DNA from: Peribacillus simplex NBRC 15720 = DSM 1321
GTDB taxonomy: Bacteria > Bacillota > Bacilli > Bacillales > DSM-1321
Length of the DNA: 64,000 bases
Assembly: GCF_002243645.1 (NCBI RefSeq)
Contig: NZ_CP017704.1
Coordinates: forward strand, 2,085,501-2,149,500
Direction of reading: 5' to 3'
The notes under the pieces are model-generated. The model saw only the letters and a program-made list of their open reading frames with translations, ran no database searches and was not told where the DNA came from. This document shows, one piece after another, positions 16,922-25,655 of this stretch. The position numbers and the translations under genes are program-made. Position 1 is the first letter of the stretch. The number at the start of each line of letters is the position of its first letter.

Positions 16922-16951
16922 AAAAAAGGCCCTTAACCTCAAGGGCTTTTT
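16922..16951. terminator. Bidirectional terminator
   Basis: AAAAGGCCCTT / AAGGGCTTTT hairpin with A- and T-rich flanks, between the DUF445 gene (plus) and the immunity-like array (minus); it can serve both strands. Confidence 0.8.
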
Positions 16952-16961
16952 AACGGGGAAA

Positions 16962-17348
16962 TTAATCTAACGAATAGGGCTTCCTTTCTTCGATTATCTC
17001 CACTTCATCCCATTCCACATATTTGGAGTACATATATTTATCTGTTCTTTCAAACCCCATCTTTTTGGCAAGTTCAGTGTTGGTGGTATCCAACAGCACT
17101 TTACCTGTTTTTCCATCTTCAGATGCAGAAAATAACTCTCCCTTATATTTTGCCTTTGAATTTATCTTAAATAAATTTTCTACCTCTTCTACAGAAACAT
17201 TTTTTATATAGATATTTTCATCTAAATGTTTGAAGCCTTGAGATAAATCAGCATGTTTATTACTTATTAACCTTATAGACTTATCTTTCAGTAGACTAAA
17301 ACTATACTCGCTACCATTATGTATTGCATACTTTCCTTTTCTTATCAT
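16962..17348 (-). CDS. Immunity-like protein, family A copy 1
   Basis: A 128-residue soluble protein beginning MIRKGKYAIHNGSEYSF; GGAGG five or six bases before the ATG at 17348 fixes this start over an upstream ATG. It is clearly paralogous to the equally long 19400-19786 product (shared IRKG-Y-IYNG-EY, NIY-K--S--EVE-LF, AKYKGELF, KRTDKY-YSK, DEVEIIEERK--SLD) and more distantly to 17951-18436. I do not recognise a named family. Location at the end of an AT-rich gene array downstream of an LXG toxin suggests an orphan immunity protein. Confidence 0.75.
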   Translation of the reverse strand: MIRKGKYAIHNGSEYSFSLLKDKSIRLISNKHADLSQGFKHLDENIYIKNVSVEEVENLFKINSKAKYKGELFSASEDGKTGKVLLDTTNTELAKKMGFERTDKYMYSKYVEWDEVEIIEERKPYSLD

Positions 17349-17468
17349 AGGTTCCTCCATTTTGAGGTAGTAATTATCATCAAAATTTAATTGCATTTCA
17401 TTCATCTGGAAACAATCATTTCAACTTATGTTAAAGTCTTTTATTAGCGGGAAATACTCTTGATAAAA

Positions 17469-17798
17469 TTAAATGTCCCTTTTAAATTCTTTTAATAAAA
17501 TATCTTTTATTCCATCTAATTCATTATTAGCAACGATTCTCTTGTCATAGTTATCATCCCAAATAAAATAATCAGATAAACCCACTCTAGGTTTATCTAT
17601 CTCACGATAGATGCTACTCAATTCCATCATAGTTTTACGATATTGCTCTGCTGATTCACAATCCAATAAGCATATTTCAATCAACTCAATTGAGGCTTTA
17701 GCTTGTCGTATTATATGTTCTAAATCTTTTTTTTCTTTTGTTAATATTTTCACCAAACGAACATAAGCATCTTTAATAACTAATAATGTTTGCTCCAA
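17469..17798 (-). CDS. Hypothetical helical protein in the immunity array
   Basis: About 109 residues, nearly all helical and charged (LLVIKDAYVRLVKILTKEKK, YRKTMMELSSIYREIDKP, DGIKDILLKEFKRDI). The frame has an ATG at 17822 without a ribosome site; a TTG at 17798 follows GGGGGA at good spacing and is preferred. No signal peptide or membrane segment. No family recognised; an immunity or adaptor role is inferred only from neighbours. Confidence 0.6.
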   Translation of the reverse strand: MEQTLLVIKDAYVRLVKILTKEKKDLEHIIRQAKASIELIEICLLDCESAEQYRKTMMELSSIYREIDKPRVGLSDYFIWDDNYDKRIVANNELDGIKDILLKEFKRDI

Positions 17799-17950
17799 GT
17801 TTATCCCCCATAATACAGTCATTTTATTGGAACTTCATCCACCACTTTTAAATACTTACTTCCCAAGGTTCCGACACAAAAATTTGATTCTCTCCACCTG
17901 AATAGATTCCAGCTTGATAAGCCCGCTAGACCCTTATTTATATTAGTTCT

Positions 17951-18436
17951 TTAGGAATTTCCATTGTATAAACTATCCAGCTTCATTATAAAGTCTCTAG
18001 TTTCTCCCCTTGGTATAACCTTCCTACTTTCAGGTAAATCTTCAAATATTAATATTGGTTTTTTCATCTCAATAATCGCTTCTATGTCGTCAAGAGGCAC
18101 GTCCTTTTTAAAAACAAATTGCTCTTGCTTTTCGAATCCATAGCAGTCTACATCATTACTATCCATACTAAATAACGAAATCTCATTTTCATCCAAGATA
18201 TGCCTGCCCAATGAATATGGCTCAAACTCTTTACCTTTGTAAGCTACCAAAAACTTTAGTTCATAAACTAAATCAACTTCCTCTTTAGTCACATCCTTGA
18301 TAAACAGATTTGTCATATTCCCTGTTTGATCAACCAGTTCACGAAATCCTTGTTCAGGTTCATGGGTTCTTAGTCTTAACCTGTCGTTACGGATATTCAA
18401 GAGGTAATCCTTATGATTATATATGGCATATTTCAT
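17951..18436 (-). CDS. Immunity-like protein, family A copy 2 (diverged)
   Basis: A 161-residue protein starting MKYAIYNHKDYLL at 18436, behind GAGGTG. It shares with copies at 16962-17348 and 19400-19786 the order YAIYN-K-Y, EQGFREL, LFIKDVTKEEVD, AYKGKEF, a GFEKQEQFVFKK segment and DDIEAIIEMKKP, but has an extra C-terminal tail (KPILIFEDLPESRKVIPRG). The family is unnamed to me. Divergent paralogues side by side are typical of orphan immunity arrays that protect against toxin variants. Confidence 0.7.
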   Translation of the reverse strand: MKYAIYNHKDYLLNIRNDRLRLRTHEPEQGFRELVDQTGNMTNLFIKDVTKEEVDLVYELKFLVAYKGKEFEPYSLGRHILDENEISLFSMDSNDVDCYGFEKQEQFVFKKDVPLDDIEAIIEMKKPILIFEDLPESRKVIPRGETRDFIMKLDSLYNGNS

Positions 18437-18495
18437 CTTTAGCTTCACCTCGTCTAACTTGTTCTTATTTAATATCTTGTATTGAAAAATGAATA

Positions 18496-18723
18496 TTAAT
18501 TCAGAAGTTCCAAAACTGTTTTATAAAAATATTCACATGCTTCATCTTCTGTATCAAATTTCTTTAAATGTGATTTCAACCCACGTTCACTATAATAGAC
18601 TTCCAAAATATTATCTCTTTTATTTAAGCAAAGTACCTCATTAGGTAGTCCACCATTAAGGCTATATAGATTTTTTGGAACATTATCTTTAATTAATAAT
18701 TTCTCCAATTCCAACTTTTTCAA
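18496..18723 (-). CDS. Small immunity-like protein, 75 residues
   Basis: Begins at a TTG (18723) with AAGGGAA upstream. The sequence contains LPNEVLCLNKRDN, LEVYYSERGLKSHLKKF and DTEDEACEYFYKTVLELL. The block of aromatic strand, acidic/arginine turn and a final helix with acidic and aromatic residues resembles small immunity proteins, including the 85-residue product at 22517-22774. Homology to that protein is suggestive, not demonstrated. Confidence 0.6.
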   Translation of the reverse strand: MKKLELEKLLIKDNVPKNLYSLNGGLPNEVLCLNKRDNILEVYYSERGLKSHLKKFDTEDEACEYFYKTVLELLN

Positions 18724-18834
18724 ATTAATTCCCTTCCCCTCTAATTATGTTCATTTTCTTTTATATGCTTCACCTCAAGAAATATAAAATCTGAGTTATC
18801 TTTTTACACGATTCAGATATACACCTTTTTCTTT

Positions 18835-19254
18835 TTATCTTTGAAAATATAGTATGCTGATTCCTACATCACATGACCTTGGATCATACCATTGTGTAAT
18901 CTTACCCCATTCAAATACATTTTCAGACAATATACCATCTGGATACCCAATTTGCTCTGTAAGCCATTCACCATGCTGAGATAGTTTTTCTTCATAGTCC
19001 CATTGGTTAATGGATGGATCATTTACTTTCAAATTAATTCCCGATATTAAATTATTTTCAAATGATAATCGGACATTAAAATATTTGCTACCTAATTTAG
19101 GTGCCTTTAAAAACCTTAAAGATTTATTATGACTATCAAGGGTTATAGATTTAAACATACTTGAAGATTCTTTTGTTTTTATATCATCTAATTTACAGTT
19201 AGGAAAAATAAAAACACCTTCTATTTCTAACTCTCCCTTTTTCAGATTACTCAT
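18835..19254 (-). CDS. Immunity-like protein, family B copy 1
   Basis: A 139-residue protein starting MSNLKKGELEIEG with AGGGG at good distance. It aligns by eye with the 21734-22168 product: a beta-rich N-terminal half (KSITLDSHNKSLRFLKAP, RLSFENNLISGINL) then W-DYEEKLSQHGEWLTEQIG-PD followed by WGKITQWYDPRS and a strand ending in ISILYFQR. No named domain recognised. Cytoplasmic, no signal peptide. Confidence 0.7.
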   Translation of the reverse strand: MSNLKKGELEIEGVFIFPNCKLDDIKTKESSSMFKSITLDSHNKSLRFLKAPKLGSKYFNVRLSFENNLISGINLKVNDPSINQWDYEEKLSQHGEWLTEQIGYPDGILSENVFEWGKITQWYDPRSCDVGISILYFQR

Positions 19255-19399
19255 CCCTTAATCCCCTCCGTTTCTTTCCAAAAAATTCACGATTTTTTTG
19301 ATCTGTAATCTTTTTCTTAAGTTAATTTAAATTTTTCATTTAGATAACACTTGTATCCTGTATCTCTTCGTAAGTCTTACTGATTGTTACGATTTATAT

Positions 19400-19786
19400 T
19401 TAATCTAACGAGAAGAGTTTTCGCTCTTCTATTATTTCAACTTCATCTAAATTTACCTTTTTAGAATAAAGATATTTATCTGTACGTTTAAAGCCATATC
19501 TTTCAGCTAGTTTTAAATGAGGAGTTGATAGAAGAATTTTTCCATTTCCACCATTAGAAGCTCCAAATAATTCTCCTTTATATTTTGCAAAAGAATGAAT
19601 TAAAAATAGCTTTTCTACTTCATTTAAGGAAATAACTTTTGTATAAATATTATCTTTATAATGGATAAATCCATAGTTCATGTCTTCCTTGTTATTGCTT
19701 ATTAGTTCTATAAATCCTTTGCTTTTAGATTCTATGAATCTATACTCTTTCCCATTATAGATCGTATACTCACCTTTTCTTATCAT
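19400..19786 (-). CDS. Immunity-like protein, family A copy 3
   Basis: A 128-residue paralogue of 16962-17348, same length and layout: MIRKGEYTIYNGKEY, YGFIHYKDNIYTK, AKYKGELFGASNG, FKRTDKYLYSKK and EVEIIEERKLFSLD. GGAG precedes the ATG. The two copies differ throughout, so the duplication is not recent. An orphan immunity function is inferred from context. Confidence 0.72.
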   Translation of the reverse strand: MIRKGEYTIYNGKEYRFIESKSKGFIELISNNKEDMNYGFIHYKDNIYTKVISLNEVEKLFLIHSFAKYKGELFGASNGGNGKILLSTPHLKLAERYGFKRTDKYLYSKKVNLDEVEIIEERKLFSLD

Positions 19787-19876
19787 TTCTCCACTCCATT
19801 ATTTAATTTTTCTATCACCCAAATTCAAACTACTTCGCTTCCCGTTTAACATAGCATATACTGGATTCTGGACATA

Positions 19877-19910
19877 AAAAACCCCTATAAAAGTCTTTTA
19901 TAGGGGTTTT
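19877..19910 (-). terminator. Terminator of the ADP-ribosylglycohydrolase gene
   Basis: Fifteen-base stem AAAACCCCTATAAAA / TTTTATAGGGGTTTT with a three-base loop; the minus strand continues with T residues 25-60 bases after the gene's stop. Confidence 0.85.
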
Positions 19911-19936
19911 TTTATATTTAATATGGGTGATTTACA

Positions 19937-20959
19937 TCAATCTCCATACTCTTCTTTAATTGCTTTATCTGCACAAAAACTAAGGAATTTCTCGATTAAT
20001 TTATCAATATCTTCTTTTCTGGTGATTTTCTCAAGCCATTCTTTAGGAATGTCGTCCATTTTATAGTACATACCTGCCAATGTTCCCGTAATGGCACCTA
20101 CTGTATCCGTATCATCCCCTAGATTCACTGCTTTTAAAACGGCATCGCTAAACGAATCTGAATTTCCTAAGCACCAAATGGCTGCTTCCAACGTATGAAC
20201 GACATAACCATCTGACTGAATTTCTTCTTGTGGTAATGAAAAGAAATCTTCTTCAAAAATTCTTGAATAGGATTGTAGCTCTTTTTGGTATATATGATCT
20301 TTATCAAAATTCTCATCAAAAAGTTTTTTTGTTTGTCTTATTGCATCTTCAGGAGAATTATTATAATAAAGTCTAAGTAAAAACTCGACATGAATAATGG
20401 AACCTACCACAGAACGCGGATGTGCATGGGTTACTTCCGTATACTTTTTAATGGTTTGGATTTTTCCAATGAAATTAAAGTTATTAATAAGGATAAATGC
20501 TACTGGAGCGATCCTCATCAACGCCCCATTCCCATTATCAAACATTGCATTTCCTCCACATTCTGGCGCTGGCGTTCCACTTTTAAACTTGGTTATGGCT
20601 TCACTGGTCGTTCTGCCAATATCGAACATTTCATGATGTGGTGTCCAATAACCAGATTCCATATACTGAACGAATTTTTGTATTAGCTCCGCTGAATCGC
20701 TTTTTTCAATTAAGTTTTCAATTAAACATAAAGTTAACGAAGTATCATCCGACCAAGTGCCTGGTGGCTGATTATACGTTCCATATCCCGTTATATCATC
20801 AATAGTAAACGTCCCTCTTTTTTTAAATTCAACTGGGACACCAAGCATGTCTCCAATAATACCGCCATACAGACTCGGTAATACTCTTTTCTTAATAGCT
20901 AAACTCATAAAAATCTTGTTATCGTCTTCCCATCTGTCTACCATTCTTCTGCCTGCCAT
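19937..20959 (-). CDS. ADP-ribosylglycohydrolase family protein (DraG type)
   Basis: A 340-residue protein with the complete metal-site set of the DraG/ARH fold: GGIIGDMLGVPVEF near residue 33, GTWSDDTSLTLCL near 67, THAHPRSVVG in the middle and LGDDTDTVGAITGTLAGMYY near 290. Such enzymes hydrolyse ADP-ribose from modified proteins, nucleic acids or small molecules. AGGTG precedes the ATG. It lies inside an array of immunity-like genes downstream of an NADase-type toxin, so a role in reversing toxin-made ADP-ribosylation is possible but not shown. Confidence 0.88.
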   Translation of the reverse strand: MAGRRMVDRWEDDNKIFMSLAIKKRVLPSLYGGIIGDMLGVPVEFKKRGTFTIDDITGYGTYNQPPGTWSDDTSLTLCLIENLIEKSDSAELIQKFVQYMESGYWTPHHEMFDIGRTTSEAITKFKSGTPAPECGGNAMFDNGNGALMRIAPVAFILINNFNFIGKIQTIKKYTEVTHAHPRSVVGSIIHVEFLLRLYYNNSPEDAIRQTKKLFDENFDKDHIYQKELQSYSRIFEEDFFSLPQEEIQSDGYVVHTLEAAIWCLGNSDSFSDAVLKAVNLGDDTDTVGAITGTLAGMYYKMDDIPKEWLEKITRKEDIDKLIEKFLSFCADKAIKEEYGD

Positions 20960-21344
20960 TCATTACACCTACTTTTTGTTTAAGTACCATTGTACCCTTG
21001 CTTAACAAATGCCCTACTGATTGATTAAATTCATACTTTGTTTTTATGTATGCTAACACCTATACTACAACCACTATAATATCTTTCCATTTAAATACAA
21101 GAGCAGAATCAGTTCGTATTTCCAAATTACCTGCTAACCATCATAGGTATCATACAAAGATTTAAAACTGTCCATTTTATTAAAAAACCTTGAATGGCTT
21201 TAGCCACTCAAGGTTTCATTTTATTCTAGTGAAATACGGATTTCTTTTTCGATAATCTTAACTATATTACCAAGGCATGCAATGGTTTTGGTGCTTTGGA
21301 TAAGTAGTCTGATTTTCAAATCAAATGGATTATCTCCAATAATT
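20960..21344. other. Gap within the immunity array with a repeated terminator and a gene scrap
   Basis: Holds a terminator-bearing repeat (21178-21239) whose near copy lies at 21664-21724. Directly downstream of the 21345-21584 gene, minus-strand 21223-21341 reads as an unstarted frame (RIIGDNPFDLKIRLL ... KIIEKEIRISLE), which could be a C-terminal remnant of an immunity gene. Confidence 0.4.
21185..21216 (-). terminator. Terminator, repeat copy 1
   Basis: AAACCTTGA-TGGCT / AGCCA-TCAAGGTTT hairpin with A/T flanks. About 60 bp around it (21178-21239) is nearly identical to 21664-21724. Confidence 0.75.
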
Positions 21345-21584
21345 CTACTTCCCTATTTTCCCCATCGTTATCATATATAAAAATTTAAAAATTGGATCCT
21401 CATTATCCTTTTCGATAATTGAAAAATTTTGTCTTTCATCCACATCATACAAAATCCAATTTCCATCTTCAAAGTAACAACCTGTTGAAATTGGTACATT
21501 AGTTTTTCTTCCAATAACAATATTAAATTCTTGCAAATTTATACCTAACTCTTTTATCTTATTTTCATATTCATTTCGTGTCAT
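21345..21584 (-). CDS. Small immunity-like protein, Imm59-like
   Basis: A 79-residue protein (MTRNEYENKIKELGIN ...) with TGCYFEDGNWILYDVDERQ and an acidic segment before a final helix. The W-LYDVDER block matches the W-VYTNDER block of the 85-residue product at 22517-22774, suggesting a diverged paralogue. GGAGG precedes the ATG. The C-terminus is shorter, and a frame remnant just downstream may be its lost end. Confidence 0.65.
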   Translation of the reverse strand: MTRNEYENKIKELGINLQEFNIVIGRKTNVPISTGCYFEDGNWILYDVDERQNFSIIEKDNEDPIFKFLYMITMGKIGK

Positions 21585-21669
21585 TTTACCAACCTCCTTT
21601 AATTAAGTAATATCCCTGATATCCTCCAGGGCTTTCACTTTAATTGGAGTATTATTTCAATTCATTAAA

Positions 21670-21701
21670 AAACCTTGAATGGCTTTGGCCACTCAAGGTT
21701 T
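21670..21701 (-). terminator. Terminator, repeat copy 2
   Basis: Same hairpin as 21185-21216 with TTGGCC in place of TTAGCC; it follows the 21734-22168 gene and has a T-rich 3' side on the minus strand only weakly, but A-rich upstream bases supply it. Confidence 0.7.
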
Positions 21702-21733
21702 TATTTTATTATAGCTAGATTCGGTTTTCTCTG

Positions 21734-22168
21734 TCATTTTTTATAACTGATCCAGATCTCTACTTGTCCACTTTTCTTATCTTCAAATGAAGTGACTTCT
21801 CCCCAAGTTCTATTATAAATTAAAGAGTCTCCTTTTTTAATATCTGGTTTTCCTAATATCTCTTCTACCCATTTATCATGTATCTCTTTCTTTTTTTTAG
21901 CTTTATAATTAGACCAATTATTGTAAGTATTTTTCAAATTTTCATCAGCATTGTCGAGTTCAATACGAGAAACTTTACCATTCTGAAAGTTAACTACAAT
22001 CCAAAAATAAATTTCATCTAACATAATTGCGTCCTTAAAAACAAACATATTATTCGATATATCGCTTGATAGAAGTTCATTTTGAAAATTTATACAAAAA
22101 GCCTGTTTATTTGTATTTCCATTAAGTATGTTTCCTTTCACTAAAATATCACCTGTTAATGCATTCAA
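21734..22168 (-). CDS. Immunity-like protein, family B copy 2
   Basis: A 144-residue protein; start is a TTG at 22168 with GAGG eight bases upstream. Paralogous to 18835-19254: beta-rich N-terminus, NNWSNYKAKKKKEIHDKWVE, ILGKPDIKKGDSL, RTWGEVTSFEDKKSGQ and a final strand VEIWISYKK. No signal peptide. No named family recognised; immunity role inferred from its place after the toxin. Confidence 0.7.
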   Translation of the reverse strand: MNALTGDILVKGNILNGNTNKQAFCINFQNELLSSDISNNMFVFKDAIMLDEIYFWIVVNFQNGKVSRIELDNADENLKNTYNNWSNYKAKKKKEIHDKWVEEILGKPDIKKGDSLIYNRTWGEVTSFEDKKSGQVEIWISYKK

Positions 22169-22516
22169 ATTAAAAACCTCATTTTCATTTAATAGTAGAT
22201 TTCAGAATTATAGTTTCCCTTTAGGTGAGAAAGCTTATTTTTTCTTTGCAGGTTTAAAAAGGGTACGGGGTTCAAGCTCACAATATTTTAATATGGAGAG
22301 CATAGGTGAATAAATGTTCCCACACGAATCTATCTATGATTAGCCAGGTTTTATAGTCACGATTCTGAATTGCCATAATCGAATTTAGTACAACTCCTTA
22401 GTATTTTTGAACAGACGAAGGGTGGACCAACATCTACTGTAAGCCCACCCTGTCTATTTCTAATGCTTCTTCATTTAGTTTGACAGCACTAATTCCTTAT
22501 GAATATCTTTTCATAT
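22169..22516. other. Intergenic region in the immunity array
   Basis: No supported gene. A weak hairpin AGGGTGG / CCACCCT lies at 22419-22452 downstream of the 22517-22774 gene and may be its terminator, though no clear T-run follows. Confidence 0.35.
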
Positions 22517-22774
22517 CTACAATAAACTTTTAAAGTACATTCTCATTGCTTTGTCTCCTCTGATCCTCTCGATAAAATCATGTAAAGCTTCACTTTCTTC
22601 TTTGTATATTTTCTCCCCTGTTTTTGTTGCTCTCTCGTCGTTTGTGTATACCTTCCACTCATAACCATCTTTTTCAATAACTACTTCACCTTCATTGGAA
22701 GTCTCCTTACAAAAAAAACAATAATTTTCTAATTCTTCATTTTGAATTATTTTCTTAGCATCATCTATATTCAT
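22517..22774 (-). CDS. Probable cognate immunity protein (Imm59-like)
   Basis: An 85-residue protein starting 15 bases after the toxin stop, with AGGAGG overlapping the toxin 3' end. Sequence: DDAKKIIQNEELENYCFFC, EVVIEKDGYEWKVYTNDERA and EESEALHDFIERIRGDKAM. This pattern resembles what I recall of the Imm59 family of small immunity proteins, a match I cannot verify here. Immediate downstream position and size are those expected for the antidote that neutralises the NADase domain inside the producing cell. Confidence 0.8.
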   Translation of the reverse strand: MNIDDAKKIIQNEELENYCFFCKETSNEGEVVIEKDGYEWKVYTNDERATKTGEKIYKEESEALHDFIERIRGDKAMRMYFKSLL

Positions 22775-22789
22775 ACTATTCCTCCTAAG

Positions 22790-24946
22790 TCAGAACAAAA
22801 GTTTTATCATACCCAAATCTTCTAAAAGCTTTGCTGGTAACGGCAATTGATATTGAATACCTCCACCTACAGATCCAAAACCTGGAGCGATATCCCCTTT
22901 CTGAATAACTAAATCATCAAATTTTAAGGAATATTTTTTCATGTAACCCTCAATCGCAGCTTTTAATCCTTTGTTAGGACAATTATTTATATAAGACTCC
23001 ATCTTACTAAAGTCGCCCGTAATCTTGTATTGATGATATTTTGATGTATCTTCGAGATATGGTAATGAACGCTGTTCATATGAATATGGCTTTCCATCAA
23101 TAACCGGTGAAGTAAATCTCCCCTCCGCAGGGCCATATCTATCAATTACTTCTCCAATTTTTGAAATATATGGATCTTTAATTGGATTTCCTGCTGCATC
23201 AAGTCTAAATCCATCATTTGGCACCTGTGACCAATCTATTTTGCCATCAGGCATTAATACACTAGGATCTTTAGGTATTTGAATCTCTCTAGGCCATTTT
23301 TCTGTTTTTAAGTATTCACCTGCTAATTTTTCATCAATATTTTTCAGGTAATCATGCAAATCTGCTTTGGTACATTTTGTATTTCTAATATCTGTTGCCC
23401 CACTAGCTGACTTAACACCTTTGTCCGTACCCTTAGAAATACTCTCCCCTGAAACACCCTCTACTTTTCTATCCTTCACCGTAAATTTCTGATAGGCTTC
23501 CTTAATTGTCTGCTTTTCCATCATAACTTGGCGAAGGGTTGGTCCTCCTGCGAGGTAGATTTGTTCCATACTTATCCGTTTAGGAATTTCTTTTTTGCCT
23601 AGTTCTTCACCTATATTTTTTAACGTGGTTTTTCCTGATCTCGCTATATCTGTTATTGTGGCTTGAACCTTCTGAACCTGCTTTTGCGCAAATTCCTTGC
23701 TGTAAGGGACGAACTTTGTACCACTTGCTACTTTATCAGCGACTTTAGCCGCACCTGCCACACCGCCAATTCCAAGAGCCATTAACAGCCCGTTCTGGCG
23801 CTGTTCCTCGGTTAGCTGGTTGCCGAACATGTCTTTGCCGGTGGCCGCTTCACCGAGGCCGTTGGCTGCGAGGAGGCCGTATATCCCGTATTCGGTTTTC
23901 TGAAGGAGGCTAAAGCCTTTTGTCGTTTTATAGGCATCGAGCGCGTGGTTCGCTGCGTTGAGTCCTTTGGCCGTTTTGTATATGGCGCTGCCGCCTTTGA
24001 TGGCCCGACCGGCCCAGCCGACGACGGGGATGAATCCAGCGGCTGCCATGGCGCCTGCGGCGATTCTTTCGGCATCGGACAGCTTGCGGCCCGTTACTGG
24101 ATCGACTCCGGTTGAGGCCCTGATTGAATCATAATATCCCGTGAATTCCCCTGTAAAGGTTTTTGTCGTATCCCAGGCTTTTTCATACCATGGACGATTT
24201 TCGAGTTCTTCCATTTCCTGTTCGATTTTCCGGGCTTCTGCTTGATCCTTTTTGAAGGTCTGATAGTCTTTCATCTGACCGGCGACTTCATCCTTCACTT
24301 GATAGACGTCACTATTCTTGAATGCCGATTGATTAAATGTCATCGGCGAAACGTGGCCGTCCTGTTTGGTGGCATCAAGCAAGGCGCGGAAGAGGCCAAC
24401 GGCCACGTTTTCCTGCCCAACGGACACATCATATTCCTCGACCAATTGCCGGTCGACATTCTCGACCTTTGTCCCGGTGTCATCCAGCCTTTGTCCGGCC
24501 AGTGTGATTTTTTCATTAAAGTTCTTTTGGTCGAACATATCAAGAGGCAGGATATCGTCAATGCTGTTCAGGATCCTTTGAAGATCGTTCGCTTGTTCAT
24601 CGACAAGCGACTTCGCTTGGTTGATGCCGTTCGAGACTTCACCATCTAAAAAGGGAACCTCGACCACCGTATTTCCGGAGAGGTCCGCCTCTTCCAGGGT
24701 GGCCGGTATGCCTTCCAAAAAACTGATTTGGGTCGTGAATAGTTCCATCCAGGCATCCGCCACCTCGATTTGCGCTTCATAGAAGCTTTTGATGGCAGTA
24801 GCACCGGCTCCCTGAAACTCGTTATCCAGGCCGACGATGCCCTGAAATTCCTTTTTCAGGGCTGTGACTTCCTTCTTTAGTTCTTCATATTGCTTGGCGC
24901 GCGACTTGGTTGCGGCCGTCAATGTCTCGGCTTCATATATCTTCAT
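22790..24946 (-). CDS. LXG-domain type VII secreted toxin with C-terminal TNT NADase domain
   Basis: A 718-residue polymorphic toxin. Residues 1 to about 210 form a helical LXG domain (KIYEAETLTAATKSRAKQYE); a pre-toxin TG-like segment follows (GVDPVTGRKLSDAERIAAGA, GFIPVVGWAGRAIKGG, about 280-320). The C-terminus (about 577-718) matches TNT NAD glycohydrolases: VIDRYGPAEGRF near 600, EQRSLPY near 627, YHQYKI near 638 and GFGSVGGGIQYQLP near 690, supplying the Arg, His and Gln expected of the NADase site. It overlaps the upstream partner gene by four bases. The 5' half is visibly GC-richer than the 3' half, a sign of swapped toxin tips. Confidence 0.9.
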   Translation of the reverse strand: MKIYEAETLTAATKSRAKQYEELKKEVTALKKEFQGIVGLDNEFQGAGATAIKSFYEAQIEVADAWMELFTTQISFLEGIPATLEEADLSGNTVVEVPFLDGEVSNGINQAKSLVDEQANDLQRILNSIDDILPLDMFDQKNFNEKITLAGQRLDDTGTKVENVDRQLVEEYDVSVGQENVAVGLFRALLDATKQDGHVSPMTFNQSAFKNSDVYQVKDEVAGQMKDYQTFKKDQAEARKIEQEMEELENRPWYEKAWDTTKTFTGEFTGYYDSIRASTGVDPVTGRKLSDAERIAAGAMAAAGFIPVVGWAGRAIKGGSAIYKTAKGLNAANHALDAYKTTKGFSLLQKTEYGIYGLLAANGLGEAATGKDMFGNQLTEEQRQNGLLMALGIGGVAGAAKVADKVASGTKFVPYSKEFAQKQVQKVQATITDIARSGKTTLKNIGEELGKKEIPKRISMEQIYLAGGPTLRQVMMEKQTIKEAYQKFTVKDRKVEGVSGESISKGTDKGVKSASGATDIRNTKCTKADLHDYLKNIDEKLAGEYLKTEKWPREIQIPKDPSVLMPDGKIDWSQVPNDGFRLDAAGNPIKDPYISKIGEVIDRYGPAEGRFTSPVIDGKPYSYEQRSLPYLEDTSKYHQYKITGDFSKMESYINNCPNKGLKAAIEGYMKKYSLKFDDLVIQKGDIAPGFGSVGGGIQYQLPLPAKLLEDLGMIKLLF

Positions 24947-25230
24947 CGCTGATACCCATGTGAAGACGTATGGGCGATGGCTTCATCCTGTTCTTTTAAT
25001 AAGTCAATGTTGGCACGGGTATCTTCCACATTTTTCTGGACGATTTTGATATATTGCTCGAAGACCTTCTCCAGGTTCGTTTCGCGGTCGATCCATTTCG
25101 AGGTGAATTCCAATTTATTATTGCCAAGCTCGCCCGCCGGCAAATTTCCAAGCGTGACTGTACCAAGTGCCGTCTTCACCTGATCGACTTGCTTCGTTAC
25201 GGCAGGATGATTCAGTTTGATTGTCGTCAT
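24943..25230 (-). CDS. Small LXG-partner protein (YwqI/TIGR04197-like)
   Basis: A 95-residue helical protein (MTTIKLNHPAVTKQVDQVKT ... EQYIKIVQKNVEDTRANIDL). Such WXG-like helpers bind LXG domains and guide them to the type VII secretion apparatus. ATG at 25230 overlaps the stop of the upstream gene (TAATG) and GGGTGG precedes it. Its own stop overlaps the toxin ATG, so all three products are translationally coupled. Confidence 0.82.
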   Translation of the reverse strand: MTTIKLNHPAVTKQVDQVKTALGTVTLGNLPAGELGNNKLEFTSKWIDRETNLEKVFEQYIKIVQKNVEDTRANIDLLKEQDEAIAHTSSHGYQR

Positions 25231-25655
25231 TAAAACAACCACCCTTTTAAATATGATATTTTGCTTTCCAATTGATCTATGACGGCTTCTCCTTTGCCTA
25301 AAAGAACATCCGCTTCATGTGCTATCGTACCTGCTGCACTCAGAGCCTTTTTCTCTATATTAAGCATCATGATTTTACCGTCGATTTTCTCTTGATAGTC
25401 GTCATAATCATCATGAATGATCGTTGACATTGCCTTGTATGCATCACTGCGGGCATCTTGAAAGTCTTCTGCACGGTTTCCCGTCCAGCTTTTTGCCAAG
25501 TCCGGATTTTTAATTTTAGCTATTTCCCCAAGACAAGCATTCTGTTCTTCTTTGATTTGTCTTTTTGCCTGCTCCAAACGATTGATTTTTTCATTCACAT
25601 CGGATGTTTTACAAAAGAGGGCAGAGTGAATTTCACTCAATGAATTTGCATACAC
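25230..25655 (-). CDS. DUF5082-like LXG accessory protein (YwqH-like)
   Basis: A 141-residue, almost fully helical protein: NEKINRLEQAKRQIKEEQNA, then SWTGNRAEDFQDARSDAY (a WXG-type turn), then a long second helical hairpin. Start is a GTG at 25655, eight bases after GAGGTG. First gene of the toxin operon. DUF5082 proteins are stable partners of LXG toxins. Confidence 0.82.
   Translation of the reverse strand: MYANSLSEIHSALFCKTSDVNEKINRLEQAKRQIKEEQNACLGEIAKIKNPDLAKSWTGNRAEDFQDARSDAYKAMSTIIHDDYDDYQEKIDGKIMMLNIEKKALSAAGTIAHEADVLLGKGEAVIDQLESKISYLKGWLF

Follow-up and report, generated by a model that had tools for sequence, protein, structure and literature searches.

Why does a locus with a single secreted toxin carry ten antidote-type genes behind it? 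The question is raised by positions 16962 to 25655, minus strand, of a 64,000-nt stretch (the window) of the 5.65-Mb, one-contig chromosome of Peribacillus simplex NBRC 15720 = DSM 1321, where an operon for an LXG toxin is followed by its likely immunity gene and nine orphans. We put at about 85% the probability that this is one LXG slot of the type VIIb secretion system (T7SSb), in which the toxin head stays constant, the toxic tip and its antidote are swapped as a unit, and old antidotes are retained. Swapped tips on a head that stays the same, cognate pairs in sibling strains, remnants of toxin genes (stubs) at several junctions and a conserved order of the antidote layers were directly observed; the odds given to displacement rest on the pairing, on three strong stubs and on the layer order.

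The sequence-only reading, an earlier inspection of the letters without database searches, had described two WXG-like helpers and an LXG toxin with a TNT end as three coupled genes. Its coordinates and genes were right, all three have profile matches, and each gene overlaps the next.

25230..25655, minus strand: YwqH-like WXG-type helper, 141 aa (PF16888, E=9.1e-9, 36.1 bits against a cut-off of 33.7)
24943..25242, minus strand: DUF5344 helper, 99 aa (PF17279, E=2.3e-21)
22790..24946, minus strand: LXG/PT-TG/TNT toxin, 718 aa (PF04740, E=1.5e-37; PF14449, E=5.7e-21; PF14021, E=1.4e-15)
22517..22774, minus strand: I85, Imm59-like immunity gene in the cognate position, 85 aa, starting 15 nt after the toxin (PF15597)

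With an N-terminal LXG domain and small helper genes upstream, this is an LXG polymorphic toxin operon. The expected TNT similarity was found by profile search over toxin residues 597-714, and the C-terminal 236 residues match solved proteins, namely a TNT-domain protein (8r15, E=6.9e-6) and an NAD glycohydrolase (8r17, E=1.4e-5), pointing to a secreted LXG toxin with a predicted NADase tip. Secretion would proceed through the T7SSb of the same genome, where YukC, the component searched for, is encoded (PF10140, E=7.8e-120). I85 is the likely antidote of this toxin; it does match Imm59, as had been proposed, with 26.6 bits just under the curated cut-off of 26.9, and is hence called Imm59-like only.

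A search with the toxin head gave matches at E<=0.001 in 30 of 36 genomes of the genus. We fetched 43 stretches around head matches 55-100% identical, broken toxins included and a group at about 40% left out, and called genes in these relatives from open reading frames (ORFs) with conservation support; loci carry the prefix L and genomes the prefix G. Full-head identity ranges over 91-98% for the main group and 55-60% for the other groups fetched. The window slot, bounded by an M28 peptidase and DUF445, is common to 19 of the 43 stretches (17 assigned by a DUF445 match, L025 and L035 by the M28 side, with the DUF445 side of L025 confirmed in L060), and at a second, related slot the YwqH shares about 60% identity with that of the window. 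At the window slot, the tips include TNT, ADP-ribosyltransferase (ART) and several without a Pfam family; nuclease and deaminase tips occur at the second slot. The ends of the 656-aa toxins of L037, L038 and L054, at the window slot, resemble the L023 nuclease by eye.

Past I85, nine further minus-strand genes extend down to position 16962, each given here with its best counterpart behind a toxin in a sibling strain. At least seven more small same-strand genes had been predicted; the strand holds, the count is nine, and one of them encodes a 340-aa hydrolase.

21734..22168, minus strand: B144, orphan, 144 aa; cognate-position homologue not found among the ORFs behind 39 intact toxins
21345..21584, minus strand: C79, orphan, Imm59-like, 79 aa; 30% identical to the immunity gene behind a 749-aa LXG toxin (L048)
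19937..20959, minus strand: ARG340, orphan ADP-ribosylglycohydrolase of the Tri1/DraG superfamily, 340 aa, the largest gene of the array (PF03747, E=1.6e-71); homologues 90-95% identical, 9-16 nt behind 717-aa LXG toxins at this slot (L026, L031, L049)
19400..19786, minus strand: A128, orphan, 128 aa; 66% identical to the immunity gene behind a 639-aa LXG toxin (L028, L032)
18835..19254, minus strand: B139, orphan, 139 aa; 92% identical to a gene overlapping the stop of a 708-aa LXG toxin (L019)
18496..18723, minus strand: C75, orphan, Imm59-like, 75 aa; 77% identical to the gene behind a 673-aa LXG-TNT toxin (L017)
17951..18448, minus strand: A165, orphan, 165 aa; 74-78% identical to the gene behind a 630-aa LXG toxin (L021, L034, L036)
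17469..17822, minus strand: H117, orphan, 117 aa; 37.5% identical over 80 aa to the gene behind a 649-aa LXG toxin (L045, not the window slot)
16962..17405, minus strand: A147, orphan, 147 aa, end gene of the array; 92% identical to a gene 6 nt behind a 641-aa LXG toxin (L035)

An ORF lies within 45 nt downstream in 38 of the 39 intact toxins; five of the 44 loci (L039-L043), where stops or frameshifts interrupt the toxin, are excluded from this count. Eight of the nine orphans match such a cognate-position ORF at E<=1e-3, two of them weakly and seven of the eight at the window slot; I85 also does so, trivially. The orphans are for this reason best read as leftovers of the slot's own former toxins. 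The sequence-only reading had proposed an accumulated array against competitors' toxins without matching toxins: an orphan immunity array it is, albeit one not solely directed against foreign toxins, and the lack of matching toxins applies at most to this genome, since the eight orphans have their partners within the genus.

The tips facing A-type antidotes in L035 and L036 are related (29%), and A128, A147 and A165 thus seem to be directed against variants of a single toxin family that has no name. I85, C75 and C79, all Imm59-like, belong to one loose group; I85 and C75 are partnered by TNT tips, which have 38 residues in common in an alignment of the window and L017 tips, and TNT was not matched in the L048 tip that faces the relative of C79. 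None of the tips matched to A165, A147/A128, B139, H117 and C79 rose above a family cut-off (best Rad33, E=0.073, and TIGR04347, E=0.0025, both falling well short of it), and a PDB profile search with the A-type antidotes and tips gave a best E of 0.27. A search of the small products against immunity families had been suggested; with Pfam and NCBIfam, the hydrolase alone among the ten antidote-type genes exceeded a Pfam cut-off, Imm59 falling just under. Among 43 genomes of the family, B144 has matches in 5 and C79 in 9, every one in this genus. In L017, L019, L021 and L040, the A-type gene after ARG340 looks chimeric, A128-like at its 5' and A147-like at its 3' side, which suggests gene conversion between layers.

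The AT-richness described earlier is confirmed (GC content per kb of 0.27-0.37 across 17001-23000 vs 0.43-0.51 across 23001-25000), and so is the repeated paralogy. A147 is 61% identical to A128 and 34% to A165, B144 and B139 are 28% identical, and hhalign links the I85, C79 and C75 groups at 55-73%, all other pairs among the seven groups compared reaching at most 1.3%. Three paralogous groups, together with the double occurrence of the ARG340-A128 pair in G024, would be in line with an array in which a small number of immunity genes multiplied through tandem duplication. We regard this as highly improbable: A147 and A165 are closer to cognate genes elsewhere (92% and 78%) than to each other, the low likeness of B139 and B144 argues in the same direction, and A128, with a best cognate match little above its identity to A147, adds a narrower difference.

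If the orphans once stood behind toxins of this slot, toxin 3' ends might persist upstream of them. Two comparisons were made. In the local alignment test, the upstream regions of eight window orphans, each tested singly, were compared with 38 toxin ends and 300 shuffles. In the anchored test, all unrelated exemplars served as controls around one common anchor and the toxin part was counted apart; it covers 77 antidotes, four others having been dropped where the exemplar start was not covered. It supersedes looser versions, in which 58 of 81 (12 random controls each) and 61 of 81 (all unrelated exemplars) passed with some scores that included coding bases. The stubs in the window are as follows, their lengths being alignment extents that may overshoot at low scores.

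20969..20985, minus strand: ARG340 stub, 17 nt from the very end of the ART toxin gene, in register
19812..19839, minus strand: A128 stub, about 28 nt, weaker, at a blastn block boundary in L028/L032 and without support from local alignment
19257..19399, minus strand: B139 stub, about 140 nt with indels, 76% identical to the L019 toxin at its 3' end
17855..17974, minus strand: H117 stub, overlapping the 3' end of A165 (local score 39 vs a shuffle maximum of 27, rank 1 of 38; also seen by blastn)

For B139, H117 and ARG340, three of the eight orphans tested, the expected toxin ranked first of 38 and scored above all 300 shuffles. The B139 stub is the clearest (local score 116 vs a shuffle maximum of 32; anchored 72 vs 8). 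That of H117 is a decayed toxin end, with 70% identity over 20 aa by tblastn; the A165 frame enters it, and the last A165 residues therefore appear to be coded by toxin remains. The ARG340 stub has an anchored score of 24 against a control maximum of 10 and ranks first locally with the L031 toxin. A128 (19 vs 10, the toxin part contributing 9) and C75 (15 vs 11) also pass the anchored test, which makes four of the six testable window orphans in all (ARG340, A128, B139 and C75). With the fetched loci taken together, 51 of the 77 antidotes pass (27 of 49 belonging to the window slot and 24 of 28 elsewhere), and each of the 13 families has at least one pass. Some of the antidotes counted still follow a headless toxin piece, and several descend from one and the same event.

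In other strains, 157 of 169 orphan pairs stand in the window order, and none of 10000 permutations was as good, a figure that is not a probability given that the strains are related (the toxin of L040 is broken, and its first antidote was counted as an orphan). Pairs that include a cognate-position gene agree in 17 cases and disagree in 15, as expected of newcomers. In G024, a live LXG616 pair and two headless toxin modules stand above the full set of ten window genes, whose order is unchanged; I85 is itself an orphan in that genome and retains 13 nt of a toxin end. The opposite extreme is seen in L031, L026 and L049, where ARG340 still directly follows its own toxin. Whether the array is a time-ordered record growing only at the toxin end, comparable to the leader end of an integron or CRISPR array, is in our judgement an evenly balanced matter. 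The G024 array (L025, L060) is the longest seen at the window slot, and genes other than ARG340 and A128 are also duplicated in it.

Ratios of nonsynonymous to synonymous substitution (dN/dS) were obtained against copies in other strains with at least 80% identity over 90% of the length, internal stops excluded. Values for orphans are below 1 in every pair measured and low for ARG340 (0.15-0.29 in 8 of 9 comparisons, 0.57 against the near-identical G024 copy), A147 (0.11-0.25) and B139 (0.14-0.23); the others are A128, 0.15-0.49; C75, 0.18; A165, 0.35-0.67; H117, 0.26-0.92; C79, 0.20-0.90; and B144, 0.67. For I85 the values are 0.52-0.60, for the toxin head 0.06-0.13. This suggests that the orphans are in current use, with branches that may partly predate orphaning. 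It also bears on the idea that the array serves chiefly to store spare tip-antidote cassettes, from which the toxin would be re-armed by recombination, rather than for defence. Sibling arrays do contain toxin pieces that lack a head yet are homologous to it in the linker, for example at 5581-6259 of L036 (92%), where the tip of the piece matches an RNase A family (L007:8448-9380, same contig). The window gaps hold only stubs, and searches of them with tips found no headless toxin, while the antidotes have dN/dS below 1; we consider a store of this kind rather unlikely.

Several observations weigh against displacement. Local alignment gave no distinctive stub for C75, A128, A165, A147 and C79; in the ARG340 ranking, the other two ART toxins came only 4th and 13th, and the unrelated L017 end scored 31 against 34. 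In the anchored test, A165 (12 vs 12) and A147 fail, as do 26 of 77 antidotes genus-wide and 22 of 49 at the window slot. The cognate matches of H117 and C79 are the weak ones, and B144 has none. The 12 discordant pairs all fall in the G024 array (87 of 99 agree there, 12 of 99 do not, and 70 of 70 agree elsewhere), and a conserved order among related strains would be expected too from plain inheritance of one ancestral array. The dN/dS values near 1 (C79, 0.90, and H117, 0.92, both against G024) come from few changes, and copies broken by stops or truncations exist elsewhere for B144 (L017), C79 (L019), B139 (L036) and ARG340 (L019). The missing stubs of A165 and A147, the partnerless B144 and the failures at the window slot would suit antidotes gained singly by horizontal transfer against competitors' toxins, whose own toxin was never at this slot. 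Such a history would leave unexplained the toxin 3' ends upstream of B139, H117, ARG340 and so many antidotes genus-wide, the 174 nt of toxin end that A147 keeps in L036 (none passing is kept in the window) and the siblings with toxins and these antidotes at the same slot; we judge it unlikely.

Under displacement, the head (two helpers, LXG, PT-TG and linker) would stay, and the tip and antidote would be replaced together. The incoming pair would join the head through homology on the 5' side and stop within or close to the old toxin gene's 3' end; the old tip would be lost and the old antidote would persist one place farther from the head. Repeated rounds would yield one live pair, the TNT tip and I85, and nine older antidotes. 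The manner of joining is glimpsed at A165/H117, the one join with both partners visible: the matches overlap by about 7 nt, and on the head side, head and linker provide a long stretch of homology. The overlap would fit homology-facilitated illegitimate recombination, which one join between divergent relatives does not establish. Retained antidotes, we infer, would protect the cell today against kin still firing the old tips, and the hydrolase layer would act by stripping ADP-ribose from the targets, not by blocking the toxin.

ARG340 is this candidate enzymatic layer. Its closest PDB relative is Listeria Lmo0067 (8za7, E=3.7e-96), followed by 6dre, a Tri1 structure (E=5.7e-42). TWSDDT and GDDTDT, presumably the metal motifs of ARG340, align with like motifs of 8za7 and 6dre. 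Against the NCBIfam Tri1 equivalog NF041672, ARG340 has E=4.3e-53 and 180 bits, short of the cut-off of 490, and is not assigned to that equivalog. The ADP-ribosylglycohydrolase family (PF03747) also includes DraG enzymes; despite this kinship, we propose that ARG340 is an antidote to ART tips, because its homologues sit directly behind such tips in three strains. The ART domain PF03496 was matched in the toxins of L031 (E=7.6e-42) and L010, a record of the L049 contig (E=3.2e-44), and the L026 toxin was classed as ART from sequence likeness. An ART search of the P. simplex genome itself gave no match, which is no proof of absence, since the control genomes gave none either. In Sporolactobacillus laevolacticus (L011), an ART toxin without a Pfam LXG match has an ADP-ribosylglycohydrolase of 69% identity immediately behind it and an A165-like gene (40%) farther along; these two types of antidote are thus linked in another genus as well.

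Displacement arrays are known from type VI secretion systems (T6SS) and orphan immunity from T7SSb; for an LXG array of this kind with an enzyme as one layer, we found no published account. In the Vibrio cholerae T6SS, the relevant sections of Kirchberger et al. 2017 (PMC5361080) describe immunity arrays arising by sequential effector displacement: a new pair displaces the effector, the old immunity gene is kept and pushed downstream, and intermediates occur in other strains, as in Peribacillus. Homology-facilitated illegitimate recombination is proposed there (PMC5361080). Unlike that Gram-negative T6SS, the Peribacillus case concerns T7SSb LXG toxins in Bacillota, with one enzyme immunity family and with stubs measured against controls. 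The T7SSb of Listeria monocytogenes similarly combines LXG toxins and their cognate immunity with orphan immunity genes in varying number; a further likeness is a NADase-like tip with an antidote that other strains carry as an orphan; the passages concerned (PMC10327511) deal with a different genus and slot and contain neither layer order nor toxin stubs. The LXG locus of Enterococcus faecalis OG1RF, as portrayed in part of PMC7790226, also has downstream antidotes and full-length toxin versions in other strains, with headless toxin pieces downstream, whereas the window has only antidotes and stubs. The array further resembles the heterogeneous polyimmunity loci of Zhang et al. 2012, with mixed immunity families in one array; Imm-ARG, given in the pertinent section (PMC3482391) as an ADP-ribosylglycohydrolase that provides enzymatic immunity to R-S-E ART toxins, is akin to ARG340, although ARG340 is an orphan layer and its likely toxin is identified at the same slot in siblings. 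In the open-access papers searched, we found none on Peribacillus with LXG, and none joining ADP-ribosylhydrolase, immunity and type VII secretion.

The displacement model is in this way carried from the V. cholerae T6SS to T7SSb LXG toxins, with physical scars and a conserved layer order, and a toxin partner is given to unnamed small genes (the A family, B139 and H117), making their antidote role directly testable. If the record is time-ordered, the toxin succession of a Gram-positive lineage would be readable from one locus; a hydrolase layer that would undo ADP-ribosylation could guard against many ART toxins at once.

Hairpins were also seen in and around the array.

25876-25854: terminator-like hairpin before the operon
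21658..21705, minus strand: terminator-like hairpin repeat, copy 1, after B144 (-21.9 kcal/mol, z=-7.4)
21173..21222, minus strand: copy 2, between C79 and ARG340 (-22.3 kcal/mol, z=-7.7)
19876-19912: a further hairpin
16929..16946, minus strand: terminator-like hairpin after A147, its folding alone not unusual (z=-1.2)

The repeat recurs in gaps at both slots (L017, L025, L037, L041, L053, L059 and others) and is possibly a mark of cassette ends. We had considered it as a promoter and rejected this, as it folds as a terminator-like hairpin. Terminator-like sites are in excess (12 vs 4.9 expected, sd 2.1), and promoter-like sites are not (43 vs 34.6, sd 6.1).

The same genome has further LXG loci. 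At about 5.577-5.592 Mb (L059/L016), a second LXG slot combines a 96% identical head with a different tip, headless toxin pieces and small downstream genes. At 3.706-3.722 Mb (L015), a third LXG toxin, of 600 aa, precedes several small genes, and two of these seem by eye to have ankyrin-like repeats.

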